Made by a program: the position numbers and the translations under genes. A DNA stretch of 64,000 nt, from assembly GCA_013112555.1 (NCBI GenBank), contig JABFGK010000001.1:2020581-2084580 (forward strand). Reading direction: 5' to 3'. The notes beneath the pieces were generated by a model that worked only from the letters and a program-made list of their open reading frames with translations, was not told where the DNA came from and did not search any database. The first letter of the stretch is position 1, and each line of letters begins with the position of its first letter. The stretch is from Planctomycetota bacterium. GTDB lineage: Bacteria > Planctomycetota > Phycisphaerae > Phycisphaerales > UBA5793. Positions 4,304-44,479 of the stretch are shown in pieces.

Positions 4304-5182
4304 ATGGTTCGCAAGCGTGGCGGACGGCTCCGTCGGAGACGACGTCGGCTGAAGGCGGTGGCTGTGGTGCCGTCGATGTTCACGCTGGGCAATCTGCTGT
4401 GTGGCTTTGCAGCCGTGTATTACGCAGCGAAGCCGTTTGCAGCCGAGGATCAGTCAAAAAGCCTGCTGATAGCCGGGATTCTCGTTTTCGTCGGGATGTT
4501 TTTTGATTCGGTCGATGGGTATGTTGCTCGTCTGACCCGCTCGGTGTCCGAACTTGGGGGGCAACTGGACTCGCTGGCTGACATTGTGACATTCGGGGTG
4601 GCACCCGCGTACATGACGCTGCAACTGGTCACCCGGTATTACCTCGGGGGTGATGCCGAGCAGACGGTCATCAGTCCCCTGCACGATGATGTATTCGGCC
4701 GGATCTTTTGGGTGTGTGCAGCGATCTATGTTGCCTGCACGGCGCTGCGGCTGGCACGGTTCAATGTGGAGACAGCCAGCGGGGTGTTGGATGATCACAT
4801 GTATTTTCGGGGGTTGCCGGCCCCGGGGGCCGGTGGATGTGTGGCCGGCCTGATTCTGTTACACGAGCACTATTACGAAGCGTTGAATCAATTTCAGTGG
4901 GTGGCTCGGACGACGGGCCTGGGGATGACATTCATCTTGCTCTTGTGTGCCGTGGCGATGGTGAGTCGTTTGCCATATGTGCACATCGTGAACAAGTATC
5001 TGCGTCGCAAGGCCTCGTTCGGCTTTCTCGTTGAGGTGGCCATTGTGCTGGTCTGTGCTGCTATTTTCATGGTTGAGGCGATCGCGCTTTCGTTTACGGC
5101 CTATGCATTGAGCGCACCGCTGCGGAGTGTATGGGTGGGATGGCGGAGAAGGGCTCGGGCGATCAGGAGCCGGTCGGCGTAG
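4304..5182 (+). CDS. pssA: CDP-diacylglycerol--serine O-phosphatidyltransferase
   Basis: This integral membrane enzyme makes phosphatidylserine from CDP-diacylglycerol and serine. The CDP-alcohol phosphotransferase signature D-x2-DG-x2-AR-x8-G-x3-D-x3-D is complete at about residues 68-93 (D68, D71-G72, A75-R76, G85, D89, D93). The usual N-terminal FTLGNLLCG precedes it, and several hydrophobic helices follow. The frame is open from 4211, but the chosen ATG (MVRKRGGRLRRRRRR) lies after a terminator-like hairpin and gives about 292 residues with a basic N-terminus. A start at GTG 4259 or 4265 is possible. No psd (decarboxylase) is adjacent. Confidence 0.88.
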   Translation: MVRKRGGRLRRRRRRLKAVAVVPSMFTLGNLLCGFAAVYYAAKPFAAEDQSKSLLIAGILVFVGMFFDSVDGYVARLTRSVSELGGQLDSLADIVTFGVAPAYMTLQLVTRYYLGGDAEQTVISPLHDDVFGRIFWVCAAIYVACTALRLARFNVETASGVLDDHMYFRGLPAPGAGGCVAGLILLHEHYYEALNQFQWVARTTGLGMTFILLLCAVAMVSRLPYVHIVNKYLRRKASFGFLVEVAIVLVCAAIFMVEAIALSFTAYALSAPLRSVWVGWRRRARAIRSRSA

Positions 5183-5277
5183 ATTTTGTTATCTGATGTC
5201 CTCGTGCATACCCCACGATCTGCTCGAAACACCCGCAGGTCACGGGACTTCTTTCTGGTGCGCGTGGATGGTGTGCG

Positions 5278-5862
5278 TTAGTGGGAGTGGATGCGGGAGT
5301 GCATCTGGAATCCGAGGATCGGATTGATCCGTTGCAGAATCCAACTGATTGGCAGCGAGATCACTGCACTGTAGAGGATGATGAAGAACCCGTCGTAAAG
5401 GCTCGTCGTGGCCGACCAGGTGAAGGACGGGTACCAGCCGCTCCATGCTCCCAGTGCGTGTCTGACGGAGATGAGAAAGACGGCCAATATGACAGCAGCG
5501 ATGCCGGCCAGCAACGTGAGGATCGGCATGACAAACGGGTGCCGCCGGTACATCATGGAGCGCATCTGGAGGATGAGGGCTGCACCGAGCATAAAGCCGA
5601 GTGCATTCGGACCGACGATAATGAGTGATGACCCGGTCGGGTCTGAGAATCGAGCCGTCAGGTCCACGATGAGGCCGAGGAGCAGCGCGCTCCACATGGT
5701 CTGATAGGCGGGTGCCATGGAGGCGTAGCAGACCATGAGGACGAGGACGAACGAGGGGGCAATGACGGTCCCGCCGGCAAAGCGGACGGCCAGCAGATCG
5801 TGGAGGCCGAGGTCAAAGCCGGCAAAGAGATAGGCCAGGATGAGGAAGGTGATCCAGTTCAT
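5278..5862 (-). CDS. mreD: rod-shape-determining protein MreD
   Basis: This 194-residue membrane protein has five or six hydrophobic segments. It follows mreC with an ATGA overlap, the usual mreC-mreD arrangement. MreD is part of the elongasome that guides cell-wall synthesis along the cylinder. Sequence identity in the family is low, so the call rests on size, topology and position. The conserved-type PTGSS segment sits in the middle. It converges with pssA, about 95 bp between. Confidence 0.82.
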   Translation of the reverse strand: MNWITFLILAYLFAGFDLGLHDLLAVRFAGGTVIAPSFVLVLMVCYASMAPAYQTMWSALLLGLIVDLTARFSDPTGSSLIIVGPNALGFMLGAALILQMRSMMYRRHPFVMPILTLLAGIAAVILAVFLISVRHALGAWSGWYPSFTWSATTSLYDGFFIILYSAVISLPISWILQRINPILGFQMHSRIHSH

Positions 5863-6722
5863 GGCCCACCCCCCCCGTCCGATGGTGGCACGTCAGGCCG
5901 GCGCTGCGGAATCTTGAGCAGCATGTCTGAGAGTCGCATGATATCGATGGTCGGCTTAACGGAGACGAGTTGGTGCAGTGAGTGTTGTGGGTATGGCTCG
6001 CAGTACTCGACAAACCCGACGATGAGGCCGGTGTTGGAATGTCCCCAGACGTCATCGTCGCAGAGTCTGACCACACTTCCGGGAGGAAACATGATGCCGC
6101 TGTCAAACAGGCCGGAGAGACGTCCTTGTTCGTCGGCCTTGAGCGACCCCGGCTCATCATCCTGAAGTCCGTCTGCCCCGGCTTCAATCCGAACGCTCAG
6201 GACGGTCTCGGGGTGGATGATCGGAATGATCGAGGCAGTCAGCGTATCGACACGTTGCACGCGGCCGATGAGTTGACGGTACGGCGTGATGGCCACCGTC
6301 TCACGGGTGACGCCCTGCCGTGTGCCGGCATTCACCTGAAATGCGTTGGCCCTCCCGGCACTCGTACCACCGGTTCCCCGGCGCACGGGCAGGTAGACGA
6401 CGTCCGGGTCTTCCTGATAGAGGCTGGTCAGTTCGCTGAGTTGGTGCTGGAGGAGGTCAACCTGTCGTTCGAGGTAGAAGATGCGTTCGTCGCGTGTGTT
6501 GAGTTCGACCAGGAGTTGATCGATTTCCTCGGCGTCGCCGGGAACGGCTCGTCGTGGCGGTCGGACGGTGGCGGACAAGTGGGCCAGCGGTTCACTGATG
6601 GGCATCAGCATCTGGACTGCGGGGCCGTCGAGCAGGTCCCCGAGTGGCCAGGGGAGGATGACGAGCGCCAGCAGGAGTCCTGTGGCCATGATCAATCGTC
6701 TTGCAGGATGTGATTGCGTCAT
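5859..6722 (-). CDS. mreC: rod-shape-determining protein MreC
   Basis: MreC is a bitopic periplasmic elongasome scaffold. The protein has one N-terminal membrane segment (MATGLLLALVILPWP). A coiled coil follows (about residues 65-105, rich in Glu/Leu/Gln), then the beta-rich MreC domain containing LPVRRGTGG, NAGTRQGV and LIGRVQRV. About 287 residues is normal. The ATG at 6722 is chosen; an in-frame GTG at 6734 is an alternative. It overlaps mreD by four bases. mreB is not adjacent. Confidence 0.87.
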   Translation of the reverse strand: MTQSHPARRLIMATGLLLALVILPWPLGDLLDGPAVQMLMPISEPLAHLSATVRPPRRAVPGDAEEIDQLLVELNTRDERIFYLERQVDLLQHQLSELTSLYQEDPDVVYLPVRRGTGGTSAGRANAFQVNAGTRQGVTRETVAITPYRQLIGRVQRVDTLTASIIPIIHPETVLSVRIEAGADGLQDDEPGSLKADEQGRLSGLFDSGIMFPPGSVVRLCDDDVWGHSNTGLIVGFVEYCEPYPQHSLHQLVSVKPTIDIMRLSDMLLKIPQRRPDVPPSDGGGGP

Positions 6723-6820
6723 GCGATCACCCACCCGTGTAAATCGAAACGGCGCTCCGTCAGAGGATATCGAGGCATGGTCTGCCGGGCAGCGATGCCT
6801 TCCGGGTCATATGTGTCAAA

Positions 6821-7816
6821 TCACGTATCTGAGGCAGCCGGCACCGGCGTGGTCGGTTTCTCTGCCGTCCCGGCTGCGGGATCGGAACTGGTGGTCGCCT
6901 GATTCTGGGTCATGCCGACCTTGTCATCGGGATTGGGGACGGGCCAGTCGACGTCCTGGACGTAGCCGTACTCGATTAACAGGGGCGTGAGCCAGGCACG
7001 CATGGTTTCGATCTGCTCCGGGGAACACTCGCGCGACCACTTGACGTTGCGATTCTCGAGGTGCTCGGGCCAGCGGTTGATTGCCTTGTCATCGGTCCGC
7101 AGCCCGAACTGCTCGCAGACATCCTTCATGATGCCTCGGGTCCGGATGATGAACTCCTCGTAGCGGGTTCGGAAAATCCGGTCAGCAGGGATGGCAGCCA
7201 GATCCTGTTGCACGGTTGACTCGATGCCGACCCACTGCCGTGAGTGCGCTTCGTAGGGATCCTTCTGGTAGTAATCCTGCCAGCCGGGGGGGCGGGCAAA
7301 GGCACCGAGGACGCGGTCTTGCTTTGATTGTCGCTCGACGGCCCGGATCATGGAGCGGACGACGGCACGGCCGTCGCGGATGATGTGGACAAACTGGGCG
7401 TCAGGAAATGCCTTCAGCAGGTACGGGACCCGCAGCGTGTTGCGCGGGAGTTTGTTGGTGAATCGACATATCGGCAGACGCTGTCGGAATCGCATGTACT
7501 TCGTGAAGTAGCCGACATTGGCCCGGAGGCGTCGGGAGCCGATCCAGGAGGCATCCTCGTCGGTCCACCGGTGCTCGGTCGTGCGGCTGAAGTACATGGG
7601 GTCGAACAGGCAATGGCCTTCGGACCAGTTGGCGAGTTGTGGGTGTTGGCCGAAGAGTCTGGAAAAGACGCTCGTACCGGAACGTGGGGAGCCGAGGATG
7701 AAGATGGGGCGGTCGACCCTGGGGTGCGGGAGGACGGCAATGATGCCCAGCGTCAGGGGATTGCGCCCCCAGACGAATTGCCAGAGTGTGCGTTCAAATG
7801 GTCCGGGGATCCTCAT
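6821..7816 (-). CDS. sulfotransferase family protein (PAPS-dependent), paralogue 1
   Basis: The 5'-phosphosulfate loop SPRSGTS (about residues 43-49) and a 3'-phosphate-binding segment around HIIRDGRAVVRSM mark a PAPS-dependent sulfotransferase of about 331 residues. The acceptor is unknown, but carbohydrate or lipid-linked glycan is likely given the neighbouring glycosyltransferase. The C-terminus is a Thr/Ala/Pro-rich tail. The ATG (MRIPGP) is used; a TTG ten codons earlier is possible. It lies in tandem with a second sulfotransferase on the same strand, and both share the layout DRPIFILG.PRSGTS, NW/HWSE, HRWT and LENRN.KW, so they are likely duplicates. Confidence 0.85.
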   Translation of the reverse strand: MRIPGPFERTLWQFVWGRNPLTLGIIAVLPHPRVDRPIFILGSPRSGTSVFSRLFGQHPQLANWSEGHCLFDPMYFSRTTEHRWTDEDASWIGSRRLRANVGYFTKYMRFRQRLPICRFTNKLPRNTLRVPYLLKAFPDAQFVHIIRDGRAVVRSMIRAVERQSKQDRVLGAFARPPGWQDYYQKDPYEAHSRQWVGIESTVQQDLAAIPADRIFRTRYEEFIIRTRGIMKDVCEQFGLRTDDKAINRWPEHLENRNVKWSRECSPEQIETMRAWLTPLLIEYGYVQDVDWPVPNPDDKVGMTQNQATTSSDPAAGTAEKPTTPVPAASDT

Positions 7817-7867
7817 GTGGTTGGTGCTCCGGGTAGGGCACGTCAATGTGCCGTCGTGTCTGCCCCA

Positions 7868-7901
7868 CCCCCCGTGTGGTCAGGTCCCCGCTCACGGGGG
7901 G
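7868..7901. repeat. 9-bp perfect inverted repeat between the two sulfotransferase genes
   Basis: CCCCCCGTG and CACGGGGGG are separated by 16 bases. No T run follows on either strand, so an intrinsic terminator is not supported. Confidence 0.5.
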
Positions 7902-7937
7902 ACGGATTATTCGGAAGCACTCCCCTGTGGGACGCTG

Positions 7938-8846
7938 CTACGCCGTATTGTCTTTTCGTTCCTTCAGGACGCGGTCGAGCCAGGCGTCGTCGGTTTCGTA
8001 GCCTTCATCGAGAACGATCGGGCCCAGGATCCGGTGCATGGTCTTTATCTCATCGACCGACCTGGTCGCCGCCCATTTGTAGTTTCGGTTTTCGAGCGTT
8101 TCGGGGACTTTTGCCAGGGCCTGCTCATTGACCGTGACATCGGCAAAGTCATAGGCCTGTCTGAGCGTACCGTGGCAGTCCTGGCCGAAGTCCTCGTAAC
8201 TCACGGCAAACAGGTTTTCGGGCTTGACGGCTTCCTGGAGGTCTTGCTTGAGTACCTGGTGGATAGCCACCGTCATGCGGCAGAATCGCTCCATGGGGTC
8301 CTTGATGGCATCGATCTCGCGCCATCCGGGTGGCCTGGCAAAGCCGCCCAGAGGGAAGCGGTGTCGTTGTCGTTCCCTTTTCGTGATCGAATAGAGGCTG
8401 TTTGCGACGGCCCGGGGATCGCGGCGGATGTGGATCAGGCGTGCCTCGGGCCAGCCGGCCGTGAGGAACGGGACGCGGAGGGCATTGCGAGGATGCTTGT
8501 TGATGAAGCGATCGCAGCCCTTCCATCGGGTGTAATACCCGAAGTTGTTGTTGATTCGGCGAAGGGCCTGGGGAGTGCACTCCTGCGCGGTCCAGCGGTG
8601 TTCGTTCTCGTATGCTCGCCACTTGGGATCCCAAACGACGGGCGCTTCCGACCAGTGAGCCAGATTCGGATTCGAGCCCATGAGTGTGCAGAAGATCGAT
8701 GTTCCGGACCGTGGCAGGCCGAGAATGAAGATGGGTCGATCAAGGACGACGGCCGGGAAGCGGGCGATGATCCGGTGAGCGATCGTATTTCGCGTATGTA
8801 TTTGTGCCCAAAGGAGTTTTGGGAGTCGTTTTGCGGTCAGTTGCAC
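7938..8846 (-). CDS. sulfotransferase family protein (PAPS-dependent), paralogue 2
   Basis: This 302-residue protein carries LPRSGTS (44-50) as the 5'-phosphosulfate loop and HIRRDPRAVANSLYS as the 3'-phosphate-binding segment. The sulfate acceptor cannot be read from sequence. It is upstream of, and similar along its length to, the sulfotransferase at 6821-7816, with about 120 bp between. The best start is a GTG before CAACTGACC; no ATG lies nearby and the ribosome-binding site is weak. It is divergent from a GT4 glycosyltransferase across a long intergenic region. No PAPS synthesis genes are in the window. Confidence 0.85.
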   Translation of the reverse strand: MQLTAKRLPKLLWAQIHTRNTIAHRIIARFPAVVLDRPIFILGLPRSGTSIFCTLMGSNPNLAHWSEAPVVWDPKWRAYENEHRWTAQECTPQALRRINNNFGYYTRWKGCDRFINKHPRNALRVPFLTAGWPEARLIHIRRDPRAVANSLYSITKRERQRHRFPLGGFARPPGWREIDAIKDPMERFCRMTVAIHQVLKQDLQEAVKPENLFAVSYEDFGQDCHGTLRQAYDFADVTVNEQALAKVPETLENRNYKWAATRSVDEIKTMHRILGPIVLDEGYETDDAWLDRVLKERKDNTA

Positions 8847-27401: not shown

Positions 27402-28916
27402 CTACTGCTCATCAAGCGGCGGCCTCGGCACATTGACGATCTGGTCATACCCCCCCAAGTCGCGGTTGGTGAGCACATCATATTCACGCGGCCGTCGTCG
27501 ATCAGCAGGTGCTGGCGTGCCGCCATTGTCTTCCTGGTCCAAACCGGTCGAATACAACAGGTACGGCCTGCCCTCAGGATCATCATTGACCAGATGATAA
27601 CACCATGATCCGCCATGCACCGGATCGGGCGGCAACTTGTCCAGAATCTCCGGGACAAGGGCATCCAACTGCGTCGGATACGAGCCGTGCTCGCCACAGT
27701 AGATCTCCAAAGCCAGCATGAGTCTTGTACCATCCTGGTTGAACCGAGTCTGTGTTTGATACTGCAAACATTGATAACAGTATGAATCCACCAACTGTAT
27801 CAGGAAGTACTTGCGCATATCTGATGCTACAAAGAACTCATCGTAGTACTTGTGCGTGACGACCCGCTCCACCGGCGGATATTGTGACTGCCCTATGCAC
27901 AGGGCGTACCACTCGTCGTATTTGTTAAGCAGTTCGCGCCGGTTCGCGACTCTGTAGCGTCCATTGAACGCAGCAGCAAATGAGTGCTCTACAGGCCCTT
28001 CATTCAGTTCCCGCTCGCACATCCATGCCAGAAGATAGCCATTTTTTGAATCGTTGCCCGAGTACATCCGCTGCGTCACGTCATAGATAAATGCTCTCTC
28101 ACACCTTGCATAATAGTCAAAGCCACTCAAAGGCGGATACTTGTCAATCAGGGCCAATATCTGTTCACACGTATCCGGAGTCAATGTGCCATCGACAGTG
28201 CAGTACTGCAGCATCAGCAGTGTGCGCGCACGCCTCAGCCAGCCAATCCTGACGGCAAGCCTGTGCGGCTGATTGGACGTCCACTGCTCCATCTGAAGGA
28301 GTAGCCTCAATCTGCTATCCGCAAGTGTAACATCAGACGCTTCCAAGGCCAGATGCACGCTTGCCAACAGTGCCGTATGACATGTTCGGCTAGTACTGAC
28401 CCACCAGACTTGTTCCTGATACACCGAGCACTCGCCCGAGTACGTCATGACGCCATGGCCGGCCTGCATCGCCTGTTCCAGATTGTTGAAGATCCCTCCC
28501 TCTTCCAGCCGACGTAGGCATTCTCGCTCCACGGTGGTATCAGTGGCCCCTCTCCAGATCCGTGACAGATGCAAGCGCACGCTGTATTCTTCCTCACCGC
28601 GCTGTGCTTCAATCTCTCTTTCATACTGAGACTTGACGTCCCAGCCTTGGCTGCACGCACTCTCAAACAGCCTCCACCCTTCATCCCCCTCACCCGGCTG
28701 CAACCCGAGTCGTTCCTCGGCCATCCGCTTGAGTTGTGCCCCATAATCCACCGAAATCGTCGGCTGGCCGTTGTACACGGACAGCGTCTGCACAAACACA
28801 ATGAGAGCCACAGCGCCGACCGAACCTGCAACGACAATGCACAACCACATCACCACCCACGGCCCGGTGCGCATGCGGGAACGCACGGGTACGCCATTGT
28901 CCGTTTGTTCGCTCAT
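27402..28916 (-). CDS. membrane-anchored protein of unknown function
   Basis: About 504 residues: one N-terminal membrane helix (WVVMWLCIVVAGSVGAVALIVFV), then a long extracytoplasmic helical region. Near the C-terminus, RLMLALEIYCGEHGSYPTQL followed by LDKLPPDPVHGG resembles the sequence seen at the C-terminal part of planctomycete pseudopilin-like proteins, but no prepilin cleavage site is at the N-terminus. The ATG (MSEQTDN) is preceded by GGGAGG; an earlier TTG is unlikely. It ends in a repeat-rich gap and is downstream of the Lon-family protease. Confidence 0.6.
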   Translation of the reverse strand: MSEQTDNGVPVRSRMRTGPWVVMWLCIVVAGSVGAVALIVFVQTLSVYNGQPTISVDYGAQLKRMAEERLGLQPGEGDEGWRLFESACSQGWDVKSQYEREIEAQRGEEEYSVRLHLSRIWRGATDTTVERECLRRLEEGGIFNNLEQAMQAGHGVMTYSGECSVYQEQVWWVSTSRTCHTALLASVHLALEASDVTLADSRLRLLLQMEQWTSNQPHRLAVRIGWLRRARTLLMLQYCTVDGTLTPDTCEQILALIDKYPPLSGFDYYARCERAFIYDVTQRMYSGNDSKNGYLLAWMCERELNEGPVEHSFAAAFNGRYRVANRRELLNKYDEWYALCIGQSQYPPVERVVTHKYYDEFFVASDMRKYFLIQLVDSYCYQCLQYQTQTRFNQDGTRLMLALEIYCGEHGSYPTQLDALVPEILDKLPPDPVHGGSWCYHLVNDDPEGRPYLLYSTGLDQEDNGGTPAPADRRRPREYDVLTNRDLGGYDQIVNVPRPPLDEQ

Positions 28917-28956
28917 GTCGTCCTCCCACAACTGGATGCATCGACTCTCTTACATC

Positions 28957-31539: not shown

Positions 31540-32253
31540 TCACTGTCTGGGTCGGCCGATCAACTGTCGAGACGGTATGGACCAGACGACCGTCATCGCT
31601 GCGAGGAAGATGGCAGCCAGAATAGCCATGACGGCGACGCGCCAGGGCCAGGGGCCGATGACATCCAGCAGTGTGGGGGTTTGCGGGTCAGCCTGGCCGA
31701 TGTAGCCGTAGTTCCAGCCCAGACTGAGGTTCACAGGAAACATGACGGCACCGTATGCCAGTAGTGCGGTCATGGCCTTGCCATAATCACCCCAAGTTGG
31801 GCGGTAGCCTCGGGCGATGACGTCATACAGTGCGGCTCCGACGATGGAGAAGTGATTCAGCCAGAAGAGCCAATATGCGGCGATGGCGGGCCCCTCCTGC
31901 AGCGTCGGGGTGAAATAGGCCTGCGAGGTCAGCCCGAGACCCCAGAAGTAGAGGATAACTCGGAAGAACCGCTGTCGGCTGAGTAATGCAAACGGTGCGG
32001 CGAGGCTTGCCAGATCACAAAGGTGCAATGGGAGGCTCTTGTCGAGCTCAAGGCGTGGCGGGATTGCCCACCAGACGGTCTGCCCGATCCAGGCCACGAG
32101 CAGGAGGACGCCCAGGATTCGGTCGCACTTCTCGGGAGACAGTGACATGGGGGGATGTCGGCGAATGCTGATCAGGGCGCACACAAGGCCGGCCGACAGG
32201 ATGATCGCCAGGGCATGACTGAAGGACCACAACTCGAACGTTTCCGGCAGCAT
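31540..32253 (-). CDS. TIGR02206 / YwaF-like membrane protein
   Basis: About 237 residues with six or seven hydrophobic helices. The pattern SLPLHLCDLASLAAPFALL and the later WLNHFSIVGAALYD and GWNYGYIGQADPQTPTLLDVIGPWPW agree with the YwaF family (TIGR02206), integral membrane proteins of unknown role. The ATG (MLPETFELWSF) is chosen; the frame remains open upstream but would run into the end of the fusion gene. It follows that gene closely, about 24 bp, and may share its transcript. Confidence 0.8.
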   Translation of the reverse strand: MLPETFELWSFSHALAIILSAGLVCALISIRRHPPMSLSPEKCDRILGVLLLVAWIGQTVWWAIPPRLELDKSLPLHLCDLASLAAPFALLSRQRFFRVILYFWGLGLTSQAYFTPTLQEGPAIAAYWLFWLNHFSIVGAALYDVIARGYRPTWGDYGKAMTALLAYGAVMFPVNLSLGWNYGYIGQADPQTPTLLDVIGPWPWRVAVMAILAAIFLAAMTVVWSIPSRQLIGRPRQ

Positions 32254-32276: not shown

Positions 32277-35200
32277 CTACTTCAGTGTGCGCCAGTCGAT
32301 CATGGCCTGCCAGTGTCGCAGCTTCATCGGTTGGTAGACGCGCACATAGTCCACAATCAGCGAATCCGGCAGCTCGGCCTCGCCGATGTCGCCGGCCCAG
32401 TCCCCAACTTCGCAACTTAATATCATGTACTGGGGCCGTTGTGAGACGGCCGTGCGGGTCCGCCAGGTCTCTCGGCCATCGACCAAGAAGACGTACTCGG
32501 CAGGCGTCCAGAGCAGGCCGAATGTATGGAATCCATCATTGAGTCCGTCGATCGGCACGAGCCTGCCCTGTGACTTGTGATGTTCGCCATAGCCGTCCCA
32601 ATGGAGTGTGTGTTGGACGGCACTTTCGTGTTTGCCGTTATGCAGGAGTTCCGCGACGTCGATTTCGGTGCCGGCGGTTGCTACATCACCAATCGGGTTC
32701 CCCATGGAGTGTGTGTGAATCCAGAAGGCTGACCAGTGGCCGACCTCCGTTTGCAACTGCATGCGCGCTTCGAAATACCCGTAGGCGGTGCCAAAGTGCC
32801 CTAGCGTGTCAATCATGCCGGTGTGATACCGCGCGGTGCCGTCTGCCGCCTCCACACGGGAGGTGGTGATGGTGAGGTGGCCGTTCCCATCAAGTGAGAC
32901 TGCATCAGTGACGTTGATGGCATCTCGTCGCGGCCCAAGGCGAGAGTGCTTCCATTTCGTCTCGTCCAGGGCAGTCCCGTCAAACTCATCATGCCAGATG
33001 AGGCCGTAGTCATCGAGACGCGGCACCGGCCGCAGGTTGCGGGGCAGCTCCGGGCCACCGGAGAATGGGCCATCACCCGGCCGGAACTTTAACCACGCGA
33101 AGCCCCGCTCAGAGACGGCCTGTCGGCCCGTCGCCGTGAAGTCAGTAATGATGCCGTCAATGCCGTATTTCTGCACAAAACGGGCCATCTGCTCCGTGTC
33201 GTCGCCGAATGTATAACCCAGGACCATCAGGCCGCGCAAATGCGCTCGCTCGATCAGGTCTGGATCTTGGCCGTCTGTGCGACCGGCCGGCCCGATCGAC
33301 TTCCAATTGGGTGCTATTCCATCAACGATGTCTGCCAGTTGATCAAGGCGCGCATCCGGAACTTCCTCATCCTTGTCCACGAGATAGACAAGTGGGATTT
33401 GACAGTCCAGGTCACGACGCAACTGCACGAGAACGTCGAAGTCAAATGATTGAACAACGATTCGCGAATAGCCGTGATTGAGGCCGTGCGACTCAAGGGT
33501 ATCTACGACGTGGGATGCAATATCCTTCTCTGCATCGGCGTGGAATTTCGGATCCTTAATCTCTGTCAGGATCCCGACCTCGCGCCCCGATTCCTTATTA
33601 AGTGCATGGACGAGCGTCAGCAGATCATCATATGACGGAATCATCAAGCGCCACTTCCCGCTTATTCCCATCTCTCCCCGGCCGATGACAGCCAGTCGCT
33701 GTAGTTCCTGCCAGGTGAAGTCGATCACATACCACTTTCCGTCTTCTCGGACGCGGTCTGGGTACACCTCAGCCACGTTGGTGACGCCCTCGAGTGTCAG
33801 GTCATGGAAGCAGACCAGTTGATTATCAGCAGTCAGCACCAGATCCGTTTCGATCACGTCGGCACCTTGTCGGTGGGCTGCAGTAAAGGCAGCCAGTGTG
33901 TTTTCCGGCACGGTCCCGGAGGCACCGCGGTGTGCAATGGCGTAGGCATCAAGGACATCGGGTGCAGCGCGCACCCACTCCTCGGGTCCGCCGACGTCCT
34001 TCCGGATATCGACCGGAGCGCGCATGGGAAGGGAAGGATCGCCGAACAGCATGAATTTCATCCCCTGGAAGAAGATGCTCGGGGGATACCAACTATTTGA
34101 CGGCTGGATGGAGGCCAGTTTCTCGGCCTCATAGTAATAGGCTAACGCAGACTGCCAGCAGTCACCGACCGTCACTCCCAGGGCATCGCCTGTGCTCGTG
34201 GCGGCGTTGTATCCTTTGACGAAGCCGCGCATGAGCGTCATCGCACAGGGTTGGCTGCCGGTATTACATCCGATGTAGGCAACGGCTCCGTCGAGCGAGG
34301 CGCGCAGGAGTTGCTCACCGAGGCCGCTTGCGTTGTAGAGGCCGGCCTGGTAAACAGCGGGCGGCGGTGGCGGCGCATCAAAGACCTCACCGTTGTTTGT
34401 GCCGTCATGGGTGACCCCATCGGAATCGAGATACGGCTCGTATGGCGGCAGGGTCGCAAAGACGGCTGTGGAGCAGCCCACGGAGAACATAATGGGCAGG
34501 TGGTCGCGGTTGGTCAGTTCTGTAATTGAGGTCGTGGAGATGCTGTCGTGCCAACTGTCGCCCGTGCCGTGCCCGGCATGGAGGACGAGGTCCACCCCCT
34601 CGTTGAGTAGTCGAACGACTTCACGCGCAGTGGGCGGGGGTGTCTGGTCATCGCGCGTGGAATCGGCGTAGTAGCGGCGTGCATGGCTCCAGGTTGCCGG
34701 CATGTCATCGCGCATCTGATCCATCATCCCTCGGCTCTCGATCCACCCACTGGTGGTTAGGTAAGCCGCTCGGGGGAGTCGGTTCGTAACCGGTATGCTG
34801 TTGAGCACGGACACTTCCTGCGAGTAATATTGTGACTTCGTGATCACCGTCTCCAGTGCAACATCGTTGCTCACCGGCCAGCGGCCGACAGCAATCTCCG
34901 GGACGTAACTGACGCCGTCAAAGTTGATCGGATCGGCTTTGTTATGCTCACCGCGCACTTCGCCGAAGTAGGTTGCGTGGAAGTCGTCGCTCGCACCGTT
35001 CCAGTTATCGAACTCCCCGCCGGCGTCGGCAAGGTCGGCGTAATAGAGATCACAGGGATAGAAGGCGTAGTTGAAAGCGGCATCCGTGTTTCGGTCCAGC
35101 ACCATGTACCGAACCGGTATCACGTCGGCATCGCCGACGAGCAGGACGTAGCGGAGGGCACCATCGGACTCGGCCCAGCGCGTGTAGAGGTACTGCTTCA

Positions 35201-35477
35201 GACGTTCGGCGTCATCCGCAGCGTCAGCGTTCGATTCCAGTATCAATTCGAGGGAGCAGACCTCCGTATTCAATGACTGGATGACGCCTTTGAAGTCGGC
35301 ATACTCCTGCATCTGTTTTGCCCACTGCTGCGGTGTGATGATGAGGAACTGTGCCGGTTGGGATACAGCGGCCGGGTCACCGTGTGCCAGCGCAGACGTA
35401 TGGTGCGCGAGGCAGAAGACGATCGTGATCAGGAGCCGAATCGGTATGAATCGTTTGGCCATGCTGAGCCCTTCCAT
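32277..35477 (-). CDS. secreted three-domain protein: gingipain-like C25 peptidase, GDPD, GH16 glucanase
   Basis: About 1066 residues with a signal peptide (FIPIRLLITIVFCLAHHTSALA). Domain 1 (about 40-480) is like peptidase C25 (gingipain): YVLLVGDADVIPVRY, LHAGHGTGDSW (His about 298) and FSVGCSTAVF (Cys about 333). Domain 2 (about 510-800) is a glycerophosphodiester phosphodiesterase: IAHRGASGTVPENTLAA, VIETDLVLT and CFHDLTLEG. Domain 3 (about 825-1045) is GH16: WHDEFDG and GTEIDVAELL, with the E-x-D-xx-E catalytic set near 937. The parts act on peptides, glycerophosphodiesters and beta-glucans respectively. The start could also be ATG 35462. No frameshift is seen at the joins. Confidence 0.85.
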   Translation of the reverse strand: MEGLSMAKRFIPIRLLITIVFCLAHHTSALAHGDPAAVSQPAQFLIITPQQWAKQMQEYADFKGVIQSLNTEVCSLELILESNADAADDAERLKQYLYTRWAESDGALRYVLLVGDADVIPVRYMVLDRNTDAAFNYAFYPCDLYYADLADAGGEFDNWNGASDDFHATYFGEVRGEHNKADPINFDGVSYVPEIAVGRWPVSNDVALETVITKSQYYSQEVSVLNSIPVTNRLPRAAYLTTSGWIESRGMMDQMRDDMPATWSHARRYYADSTRDDQTPPPTAREVVRLLNEGVDLVLHAGHGTGDSWHDSISTTSITELTNRDHLPIMFSVGCSTAVFATLPPYEPYLDSDGVTHDGTNNGEVFDAPPPPPAVYQAGLYNASGLGEQLLRASLDGAVAYIGCNTGSQPCAMTLMRGFVKGYNAATSTGDALGVTVGDCWQSALAYYYEAEKLASIQPSNSWYPPSIFFQGMKFMLFGDPSLPMRAPVDIRKDVGGPEEWVRAAPDVLDAYAIAHRGASGTVPENTLAAFTAAHRQGADVIETDLVLTADNQLVCFHDLTLEGVTNVAEVYPDRVREDGKWYVIDFTWQELQRLAVIGRGEMGISGKWRLMIPSYDDLLTLVHALNKESGREVGILTEIKDPKFHADAEKDIASHVVDTLESHGLNHGYSRIVVQSFDFDVLVQLRRDLDCQIPLVYLVDKDEEVPDARLDQLADIVDGIAPNWKSIGPAGRTDGQDPDLIERAHLRGLMVLGYTFGDDTEQMARFVQKYGIDGIITDFTATGRQAVSERGFAWLKFRPGDGPFSGGPELPRNLRPVPRLDDYGLIWHDEFDGTALDETKWKHSRLGPRRDAINVTDAVSLDGNGHLTITTSRVEAADGTARYHTGMIDTLGHFGTAYGYFEARMQLQTEVGHWSAFWIHTHSMGNPIGDVATAGTEIDVAELLHNGKHESAVQHTLHWDGYGEHHKSQGRLVPIDGLNDGFHTFGLLWTPAEYVFLVDGRETWRTRTAVSQRPQYMILSCEVGDWAGDIGEAELPDSLIVDYVRVYQPMKLRHWQAMIDWRTLK

Positions 35478-35525
35478 CTGTGCCGCTCCCCCCACTGCGG
35501 CGGACGCCGACTGATGCCCGCTTCG

Positions 35526-36356
35526 CTAGGACAGCCCATCGGCGCGGTTCTGTTCGAGCAGGCGGAGTACCTCGCGCGCAACTTCCTCGATTGCCTTGTA
35601 TGACACGTCGATCTGCTTCCAGCCGTAGCGGGTCATGAGGATATTGGCGGCCCTGATTTCGGCGGCCAGGCCTTCGCGATCGATGTAATCGTCGATTTCC
35701 TTGACGCCGATACTTGTGAGTCGCGCCTGCCGGACGCTGCGGAGCCGGTGCGGATTCGTGGTCAGGCCGACGACCTTGTGGGCCGGCAGTGCCAGGAGTT
35801 CCTCCGGCGGTTCGCGACCGGATACGAGGGGGACGTTGGCAGCCCGGATGCCTCGGTATCCGAGATAGAAGCAAGTTGAGCTTTTCGAGACTCGTGAGAC
35901 GCCGATGACGACGATGTCGGCACTGTCGAGTTCATGTATGCGGGCACCGTCATCGTGTTTGAGTGTGTAGTCGATGGCATCGATGCGATCGAAGTATTCC
36001 TTGTGCGAGTCGTACATGAGTCCCGGGTGGGCGGACGGCAGGCTTGACAGGTGGAAGGCCATGGCCGAGAGGACCGGGCCGAGGATGTCAACGCTCGCGA
36101 CGAGATGGCGTTCGCAGGCAGCCTTCATGGCCTGACGGACATCCTGAGACACAAAGGTGTAGAAGACGACGGCACCACGATCGGCGGCCTGCTGTGCGAG
36201 TTCCTCGGCACGCTCTGAGGTTCGGACTCCGGAGTATGGGACGACGTTGAAGTCACGCTCGGCAAACTGGACCATGGCGGCCTCGACGACCTGCATGGCC
36301 GTGCGGCCGGTGCCGTCTGAGACGATAAACAAATCGAGTCGACCCGAATCGGTCAT
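35526..36356 (-). CDS. ppsR: pyruvate, phosphate dikinase / PEP synthase regulatory protein (kinase-pyrophosphorylase)
   Basis: This 276-residue DUF299-family enzyme adds phosphate to, and removes it from, the catalytic Thr of PEP synthase or PPDK in response to ADP and Pi. IVSDGTGRTA is at the N-terminus and the P-loop GVSRVSKSS at 152-160, followed by CFYLGYRG. The C-terminal region with KVVGLTTNPHRL also fits. The ATG (MTDSGR) follows AGAGGTG. The target enzyme gene is not in the window. Confidence 0.92.
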   Translation of the reverse strand: MTDSGRLDLFIVSDGTGRTAMQVVEAAMVQFAERDFNVVPYSGVRTSERAEELAQQAADRGAVVFYTFVSQDVRQAMKAACERHLVASVDILGPVLSAMAFHLSSLPSAHPGLMYDSHKEYFDRIDAIDYTLKHDDGARIHELDSADIVVIGVSRVSKSSTCFYLGYRGIRAANVPLVSGREPPEELLALPAHKVVGLTTNPHRLRSVRQARLTSIGVKEIDDYIDREGLAAEIRAANILMTRYGWKQIDVSYKAIEEVAREVLRLLEQNRADGLS

Positions 36357-36455
36357 CCTGCACCTCTTGATCGCATCCCGGGAGTGACTGAAATCTGCAA
36401 TTGCGTACTCTCCCCTGCTATTCAGTGTATGCCGCTGAACTACACTTTGGGTGCC

Positions 36456-37439
36456 ATGAGCATAGAGACGACGGTACCTCTTGCAGTCTTTCACGATCAG
36501 CGGGCCGACCTGCACGATACCGGTCCGGGGCACCCGGAGCGGCCGGAGCGGCTGCCAGCAGTGGTGTCGGCTGCTCGGGCGTATTGCCGCCACCTGCATC
36601 ACCCGTCTCAGACCGGTTGGGATTCGCAGATTCGAGTACTTGAGGCAGTTCGAGCGGTCCACGCAGCCTCATACATTGACCGGCTGCAGCATTCGTGTGC
36701 AGCGCACAAGAACTACATTGATGTGCCCGACTCAGCCATCTGCCCCGACAGTTTCGAGGCAGCCGTCGCATCGGCAGCCTGCGGGCTGGCCGCAGCGGAA
36801 GCGGTCGCGGTCACGAAGTCGGCACGCCATGCGTTCGTCGCGATGCGCCCACCCGGTCATCATTGCGAGCACAATCGATCGATGGGGTTCTGTCTGTTCA
36901 ATAACGTGGCAGTCGCTGCGTGCCGGCTGCTGACCACCCCTGGGATCGAGCGGGTCGCGATCGTTGATTTCGACGTCCATCATGGGAACGGCACGCAACA
37001 CCTGTTTGATGCTCGCGATGATGTGCTGTACATTTCGACGCACCAGCACCCGGCCACGATGTACCCGGGTACCGGATATGGGCATGAAACGGGGACTCCC
37101 GGAACAGCCGGGGCAGGGCACACACTTAATATCCCACTCGATCCGGGGACCGGCGAAGCAGAGGCTCTGGTGGCGTACGCTGGGCCGATTACCGAGCGGC
37201 TTGATGCGTATCGCCCGCACATCCTTCTCGTGTCAGCAGGGTTTGATGCAGACCGGCGTGACCCACTGGCAAATCTGCGATGGGATTCATCGACCTTTGA
37301 GCGCATCACCCGGCTGCTTACTGAGGTGGCGGACCGGCACTGCGAAGGCCGAATCGTGTCGTTTCTCGAGGGTGGGTACGACCTGCACGCGTTGGCAGAG
37401 GGCGTAACAGCACATCTGGGCGTGCTGGCCGAGGGGTGA
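36456..37439 (+). CDS. histone deacetylase family protein (AcuC-like)
   Basis: About 328 residues of the arginase/deacetylase fold. Zn and active-site motifs: RPPGHHCEHNRSMGFCLFNN (His-His pair), IVDFDVHHGNGTQ (Asp and His ligands), ISTHQHPATMYPGTG and LVSAGFDADRRDPLA. Such bacterial enzymes deacetylate acetoin-utilisation targets, polyamines or other small N-acetyl compounds. Alternative starts at 36384 or 36429 exist; ATG 36456 begins just before the domain. It is divergent from ppsR. Confidence 0.9.
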   Translation: MSIETTVPLAVFHDQRADLHDTGPGHPERPERLPAVVSAARAYCRHLHHPSQTGWDSQIRVLEAVRAVHAASYIDRLQHSCAAHKNYIDVPDSAICPDSFEAAVASAACGLAAAEAVAVTKSARHAFVAMRPPGHHCEHNRSMGFCLFNNVAVAACRLLTTPGIERVAIVDFDVHHGNGTQHLFDARDDVLYISTHQHPATMYPGTGYGHETGTPGTAGAGHTLNIPLDPGTGEAEALVAYAGPITERLDAYRPHILLVSAGFDADRRDPLANLRWDSSTFERITRLLTEVADRHCEGRIVSFLEGGYDLHALAEGVTAHLGVLAEG

Positions 37440-43048: not shown

Positions 43049-44479
43049 TCAGATGTCTTTCGTCACCGCCTGGCGGATGGCTGTTTTCATCTTCGTCAGC
43101 AGCGATTGGCCGGGCTTCGGATCACCTTCGTGCACATAGAGAACGGTGCCGTCGGCTGCCACCACCGCCAGCGTCGGCATGAACCGAACCATGAGATCAT
43201 TCCAGGCGATCTGATGCGTCGGGTCATGATACGTTGTGATCGGCTCATCAAGACCGGCAGTAATCGCCCGGATCTCTTCCATGGGATCGCTGAAGTTAAC
43301 AGGAATGATCGTCATCACGTAGCCTTCCTCCTGCCCCCACTTCTGCACGGCCGTGAGCGTCGGCAGTACGTCATAGAGTCCGTTGGAAGGGGCATCCCAG
43401 AAGGCCAGCAATATGACCCGACCCATCAACGAGGCTCGGGAGATGGTCGCGACGTCCTCATCTGCAGGATCGTCTCCCGGGTTGTCTACGTCGGCCATCT
43501 CGACGGGGACGAACTCGAAGTCGGGGATCTGTTTGCCGATCAGACTGGACAACGAATCCTGGGCAAAGAGCATGTCAAACACATCGACTTCGTGACGATC
43601 CTCGGTATTGACGACAAACTCCTCGACCGGAACATCGGGCTCAATCGTGGGATTCAGTGCCACGCGGATGATGGTGCCGTCGCCTTCATTCTGCTGGACG
43701 TTTGTGATCGATGCCTCAAACAGCGTGACCAGTTTCGTGTCCGGATCAAGTCGGATGACGAGGTTGGCCCCTTCGATTTCAGGTTCGATCAGAATGTCAA
43801 AGACGGTCTGTCCGGGGGTCTCGGGGGCAGCGTCAGCCGGCGGATCGAGCGTCACTTCGCGCATGCCGACGATTTCAGGCTGAATGGTATGGACAAAAAT
43901 TTCGGCCAGCGGATCCGAGGAGAACATGAGCGGGAACTGTGGGAAGACGAACCCGCCGATGAGATCGGTAAACATCGTCATCGTAATCGGCGGCTCGTAG
44001 TCCTGAGCGAAGAATCGGCTCGGCTTGTCTGACCATTGCCCATACATCGTGCCGTCGAGAACAGTCAACGTCGTGGTATTGGCTTCATTGTGCAGTTGGA
44101 CGACGGCGGAGTCGGATGTGATGACGACTTCGACCGTTGACTCATGCTGGGACACCTGTCCCATGGACTGGACGATGACCGTCACGGTCATGGCATCCCG
44201 GACCGCAGCAGCCGTGCGGTATGCCTGTGACGATTCATGAAACAAGCGTGTCGCCCTGGCGACTGCCTCCGGGGATCGGTCGAAGCGTGTGCCGGTCATG
44301 GTCATCGGCTCGGTTGAGGTCGCCACCGGCGGCTCAGCGGGAGGTGCGCCATCCTGGGCACGTACCAGGCCCGGCCCGGCCAGGCAGATGGCAGCCGAGA
44401 GCAGCAGCATCCGGAGCAGGCTGTCTGACCGTGTCGTGCAGCGTTGGTTGTGATGCCCATTCGTAAGTAAATCTGACAT
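43049..44479 (-). CDS. secreted protein with C-terminal thioredoxin-like domain lacking CxxC
   Basis: The 476-residue protein has a signal peptide (LLRMLLLSAAICLAGPGLVRAQ). A middle domain of about 250 residues resembles the DUF2092 / lipoprotein-carrier beta fold (VQLHNEANTTTLTVLDGTMYG). A TlpA-like redoxin domain follows (GKQIPDFEF, VILLAFWDAPSNG, FMPTLAVVAADGTVLYVHEG). Where active TlpA proteins have WCxxC, this has WDAPSN (about 359-364), so redox activity is unlikely. It probably acts in the periplasm as a structural or binding protein. It precedes the YdiJ-like gene by about 80 bp. Confidence 0.72.
   Translation of the reverse strand: MSDLLTNGHHNQRCTTRSDSLLRMLLLSAAICLAGPGLVRAQDGAPPAEPPVATSTEPMTMTGTRFDRSPEAVARATRLFHESSQAYRTAAAVRDAMTVTVIVQSMGQVSQHESTVEVVITSDSAVVQLHNEANTTTLTVLDGTMYGQWSDKPSRFFAQDYEPPITMTMFTDLIGGFVFPQFPLMFSSDPLAEIFVHTIQPEIVGMREVTLDPPADAAPETPGQTVFDILIEPEIEGANLVIRLDPDTKLVTLFEASITNVQQNEGDGTIIRVALNPTIEPDVPVEEFVVNTEDRHEVDVFDMLFAQDSLSSLIGKQIPDFEFVPVEMADVDNPGDDPADEDVATISRASLMGRVILLAFWDAPSNGLYDVLPTLTAVQKWGQEEGYVMTIIPVNFSDPMEEIRAITAGLDEPITTYHDPTHQIAWNDLMVRFMPTLAVVAADGTVLYVHEGDPKPGQSLLTKMKTAIRQAVTKDI

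Follow-up and report, generated by a model that had tools for sequence, protein, structure and literature searches.

One minus-strand gene of a Planctomycetota bacterium encodes a family C25 (gingipain-family) peptidase, a GlpQ-type glycerophosphodiester phosphodiesterase (GDPD) and a GH16 glycoside hydrolase in a single chain. We consider it probably a real lineage-specific gene fusion that arose by module accretion, and its product would be a secreted multimodular hydrolase with three independently working active sites. The component parts are known and their combination appears new. The gene lies in a window of 64,000 nucleotides, the whole stretch of DNA analysed, and its features in window coordinates are these.

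32277–35477, minus strand: triple-domain gene, 1,066 aa from the ATG at 35477 or 1,061 aa from the ATG at 35462 (the latter product is called P0001)
35385–35462, minus strand: putative Sec signal peptide MAKRFIPIRLLITIVFCLAHHTSALA, P0001 residues 1–26, assigned by eye
34023–35348, minus strand: peptidase C25 domain, P0001 39–480, Pfam PF01364 (9.3e-51)
33948–34022, minus strand: linker 1, P0001 481–505, without signal peptide or start/stop remnant
33132–33932, minus strand: GlpQ-type GDPD domain, P0001 511–777, Pfam PF03009 (1.9e-44)
33027–33107, minus strand: linker 2, P0001 786–812
32325–33026, minus strand: GH16 domain, P0001 813–1046, Pfam PF00722 (1.3e-19), with catalytic E933-I-D935-V-A-E938 (ExDxxE)

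The initial annotation described a single uninterrupted frame, and indeed the open-frame reading of the window finds no stop on the minus strand throughout 32277–35495. The whole-genome search recovers the same open frame, given as 1,082 codons and also without internal stop, on contig C1. The in-frame ATGs that may serve as starts are 35477, chosen in that annotation, and 35462, and purine-rich stretches precede both by eye. The signal peptide claimed there is kept as putative, the N-terminus being signal-peptide-like on visual judgement. P0001, which joins a glycoside hydrolase and other modules in one chain by Pfam, would then be exported.

The three domains stand in tandem without overlap in P0001 and score far above the curated Pfam cut-offs. 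The C25 and GDPD matches cover their full models with 173.6 bits against a cut-off of 23 and 153.1 bits against 23.6, respectively, and the GH16 match reaches 70.7 bits against 22. The catalytic residues align to gingipain, GlpQ and laminarinase structures. Hence, the motifs of all three families are intact as first proposed.

An architecture unique among the genomes searched may also come from pieces of three genes misjoined in metagenome assembly. However, such an artefact needs two independent in-frame joins, each with complete domains and without a stop, start or leader. GC3 stays at 0.58–0.80 along the entire frame, both linkers included, which fits one continuous coding frame. The source assembly consists of only 2 contigs with 4.55 Mb, and the gene carries the genome's only Pfam-detectable GDPD and only GH16, so there is no duplicate to drive a repeat-based misjoin. 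With no stop, even GC3 and long contigs, the hidden stop or misjoin once feared at a domain border is not seen, and we regard the artefact as very improbable.

In the C25 part, His298 and Cys330 align with the GHG and AC motifs of gingipain R (4ief/1cvr), and this catalytic pair is invariant among 22 aligned family members. The AF2 model of this part has mostly pLDDT 75–98, with low confidence at about 120–190 and 450–470, and its predicted fold matches gingipain R 1cvr in Foldseek (1.7e-16). Most likely, the domain is a His298/Cys330 cysteine endopeptidase acting on proteins. The genome has one other C25 domain.

The C25 relatives nearly always end where P0001 continues into GDPD. Among the tails inspected, 46 of 47 end within 30 residues of the GDPS/T motif, although these counts are not all independent as some loci are the same genomes in two collections. 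The sole exception, L065 (5701–7977, plus strand), is a C25 homologue with a C-terminal extension of about 230 residues that looks papain-like (C1) by eye and has no Pfam match.

Once exported, the protein may instead be cut by its C25 domain at either linker or at both, freeing GDPD and GH16 as separate enzymes, and the fusion would then be mainly a packaging device. Autoprocessing is known for family C25 in gingipains, and PorU, a sortase of this family, cuts secreted proteins. P0001 matches the NCBIfam PorU model (9.4e-14), its linkers are short, and Arg occurs in linker 1 and at its edges (MRAPVDIRKDVGGPEEWVR). However, most C25 relatives carry nothing past C25 to release. Moreover, the Pfam and NCBIfam results of P0001 contain no T9SS C-terminal sorting domain, and its C-terminus is GH16 plus 15 residues. 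We find the self-processing unlikely, yet the least so among the alternatives, ahead of a concerted action discussed below and of the assembly artefact.

In the GDPD part, the HRGAS..PENT, ETD, HD and EIK motifs are intact. It aligns to E. coli GlpQ 1ydy (4.1e-35) through the HR, E.D and HD catalytic or metal residues. The NCBIfam match to PRK11143 (2.7e-52) reaches 177.9 bits, below the equivalog cut-off of 254 bits, so the domain is GlpQ-like rather than GlpQ. For lack of GDPD homologues in its input alignment, the AF2 model is poor over this domain and was left unused there. The domain is most likely a metal-dependent GlpQ-like diesterase freeing glycerol-3-phosphate from deacylated phospholipid headgroups.

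The closest relatives of this domain are stand-alone GDPDs, and most have a hydrophobic leader-like segment ahead of AHRGAS. P0001 has lost the leader and retains a linker of 20–30 residues.

In the GH16 part, EIDVAE (E933/D935/E938) aligns with EIDIME of the beta-1,3-glucanases 9voq/3atg, and the catalytic glutamates and aspartate are invariant among 17 aligned relatives. AF2 models this part with high confidence, and Foldseek matches it to 4dfs (7.6e-19). The closest structures are laminarinases at 25–32% identity, while porphyranase and carrageenase match too. The domain would most likely be a retaining endo-beta-glycanase of laminarinase type acting on a beta-glucan-like polysaccharide.

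In a maximum-likelihood tree, the P0001 GH16 falls among other PVC sequences, a grouping of moderate support. Its relatives are stand-alone, doubled or joined to varied domains, as listed here.

L144 22–2298 and L166 6611–8887, plus strand, order-level relative (G110:C57): GH16 C-terminal to an SGSH-type sulfatase
L046 and L163: GH16 C-terminal to GH43
L083 and L085: doubled GH16, one C-terminal to another
L084 5785–7899, plus strand, Phycisphaerales chromosome: GH16-HD-GH16 in one open frame
L092: GH16 C-terminal to a sialidase-like BNR domain
L152, L153 and L161: GH16 N-terminal to an alpha-L-fucosidase

These architectures are scattered over the tree, which suggests repeated fusion events in this GH16 clade. 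With sulfatase, GH43, fucosidase, sialidase-like, HD and peptidase-diesterase partners joined to one clade, a shuffled module is indicated. Since related GH16 modules pair with many unrelated partners, the joining of domains in one protein is only a weak sign that they share a substrate.

This bears on a reading in which the peptidase, the glycerophosphodiesterase and the beta-glucanase jointly attack a single composite target, for instance a glycerophosphate-decorated beta-glucan in a protein-rich matrix, with C25 possibly processing the chain as well. The GlpQ-type diesterase and the beta-glucanase-type GH16 adjoin each other, and phosphoglycerol-substituted periplasmic glucans exist in proteobacteria. 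However, the linkages of the known osmoregulated glucans are mostly resistant to GH16 laminarinases, and the genomes searched hold no further GDPD-GH16 pair. We hold the concerted action improbable. If true, it would make the protein a new kind of combined degrader of protein, lipid headgroup and polysaccharide.

The fusion was sought in other genomes by whole-genome searches at the levels of relatives, family, order, class and phylum, the wider ranks as even samples, and by a single pattern scan across 84,980 species genomes, from which the best 80 loci were taken. The large whole-genome searches scored at most two candidates per genome. Neither a second C25-GDPD-GH16 protein nor a C25-GDPD or GDPD-GH16 pair appears in the genomes searched, all outside the source genus and ranging from relatives to phylum level, or among those 80 loci. 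Within this range, the three-domain combination is as unfamiliar as the initial annotation held it to be. Among the papers searched, none gave a relevant account of the combination, either.

In the five same-family genomes (G001–G005), C25 is stand-alone in all five and a stand-alone GH16 occurs in one. Separate domains in close relatives had been named as a reason to doubt the fusion. The separation is real, but it does not show the fusion false and rather makes it lineage-specific.

Eight long frames that contain C25 or GDPD (L037, L067, L075, L080, L129, L157, L190 and L191) were tried as further fusions and rejected, having no GDPD or GH16 fusion. L067 (2–3007, plus strand) combines an M20 peptidase with C25 in a single frame and lies on a low-coverage contig of 3.3 kb, and the remaining long C25 or GDPD frames checked have N-terminal extensions without Pfam matches. 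Viral contigs gave no relatives, and a viral origin was rejected. Plasmid records gave single-domain GDPD matches alone, among the matches listed.

The gene is flanked on the same strand by two others.

31540–32253, minus strand: TMEM164/TIGR02206-like membrane acyltransferase gene, downstream, 23 nt past the stop of the triple gene
35526–36662, minus strand: PPSR-type kinase/pyrophosphorylase gene

The TMEM164-like gene is possibly co-transcribed with the triple gene. A conserved link with either flanking gene was rejected, as the five same-family genomes carry TMEM164 relatives (37–41%) on other contigs than C25 and contain no match to PPSR. The genes around the triple gene are those for PPSR, the TMEM164-like acyltransferase, and LonB-like, histone-deacetylase-family, arginyl-transferase (ATE) and decarboxylase proteins. 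Elsewhere in the window, two long frames (27402–28931 and 43049–44479, both on the minus strand) have no Pfam match.

The neighbourhood contains no polymer-degradation or polysaccharide-utilisation cluster. Nothing directly supports the joint role once suggested for the domains, the breakdown of algal or bacterial wall material, with neither PUL-like context nor conserved neighbours found at the locus. The stand-alone C25 genes do not have conserved gene contexts, either, and keep neighbours only among near relatives. An operon origin of the fusion gains no support, as GDPD or GH16 genes are not beside the stand-alone C25 genes in the fetched flanks except at L046. There (4591–8041, plus strand, a Sedimentisphaerales MAG), a stand-alone C25 gene is followed 46 nt on by the GH43-GH16 fusion gene.

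For the lineage-specific fusion by module accretion, we infer the following course. The start would be a stand-alone secreted C25 peptidase, widespread in Planctomycetota and Verrucomicrobiota. A GlpQ-type GDPD that had lost its own leader may have been added at the end of the C25 reading frame, and a C-terminal GH16 module may have joined from the clade that these bacteria frequently shuffle. The product would be exported via Sec as a single multimodular hydrolase, and its active sites would act separately on proteins, glycerophosphodiesters and beta-glucan-like polysaccharide. The benefit may be that the enzymes are delivered together to composite debris, for instance dead cells or biofilm matrix.

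Against this account, the genomes compared all lie outside the genus, so any selection on the fused form would be conjecture, and the fusion could be young and non-adaptive, in one assembly.

In Planctomycetes, gene fusion is described as a source of multi-domain sulfatases, which often include glycoside hydrolase domains (PMC4807772). Multimodular CAZymes occur across Planctomycetota, most in Sedimentisphaerales (PMC11131199). The triple protein thus has familiar parts in a bacterial group that often shuffles such modules. Its union of three enzyme classes is apparently unreported, and it would be a clean case of module accretion in Planctomycetota. In its source organism, both the only detectable GDPD and the only GH16 are tied to a peptidase.

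Compared with the known systems, P0001 shares with gingipain R/RgpB (1cvr, 4ief) the family C25, the aligned catalytic His and Cys and a similar predicted fold, but the structural-alignment identity is only about 16–17% and no T9SS sorting domain is seen in P0001. The stand-alone PVC C25 proteins, such as L033 (JAKLEZ010000004.1) and those of the same-family genomes G001–G005, are much closer with 44–56% identity across the whole C25 domain and the invariant GHG His and GC Cys in common. Unlike P0001, they stop after C25 and lack GDPD and GH16.

E. coli GlpQ (1ydy) aligns its HRGASG..PE.T..E.DLV..HD..PDR motifs with P0001, whose GDPD instead lies inside a larger chain and lacks a leader of its own. 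The GH16 laminarinases (9voq, 3atg, 4dfs and the planctomycete PtLam 8xph) have the same GH16 fold and ExDxxE motif, but with about 25–32% identity, and the P0001 GH16 belongs to a separate PVC clade, in which no solved member was found. The sulfatase-GH16 fusion (G110:C57, L144/L166) likewise carries GH16 as a C-terminal module, with 59% identity over P0001 785–1045, whereas its N-terminal partner is a sulfatase and not C25-GDPD.
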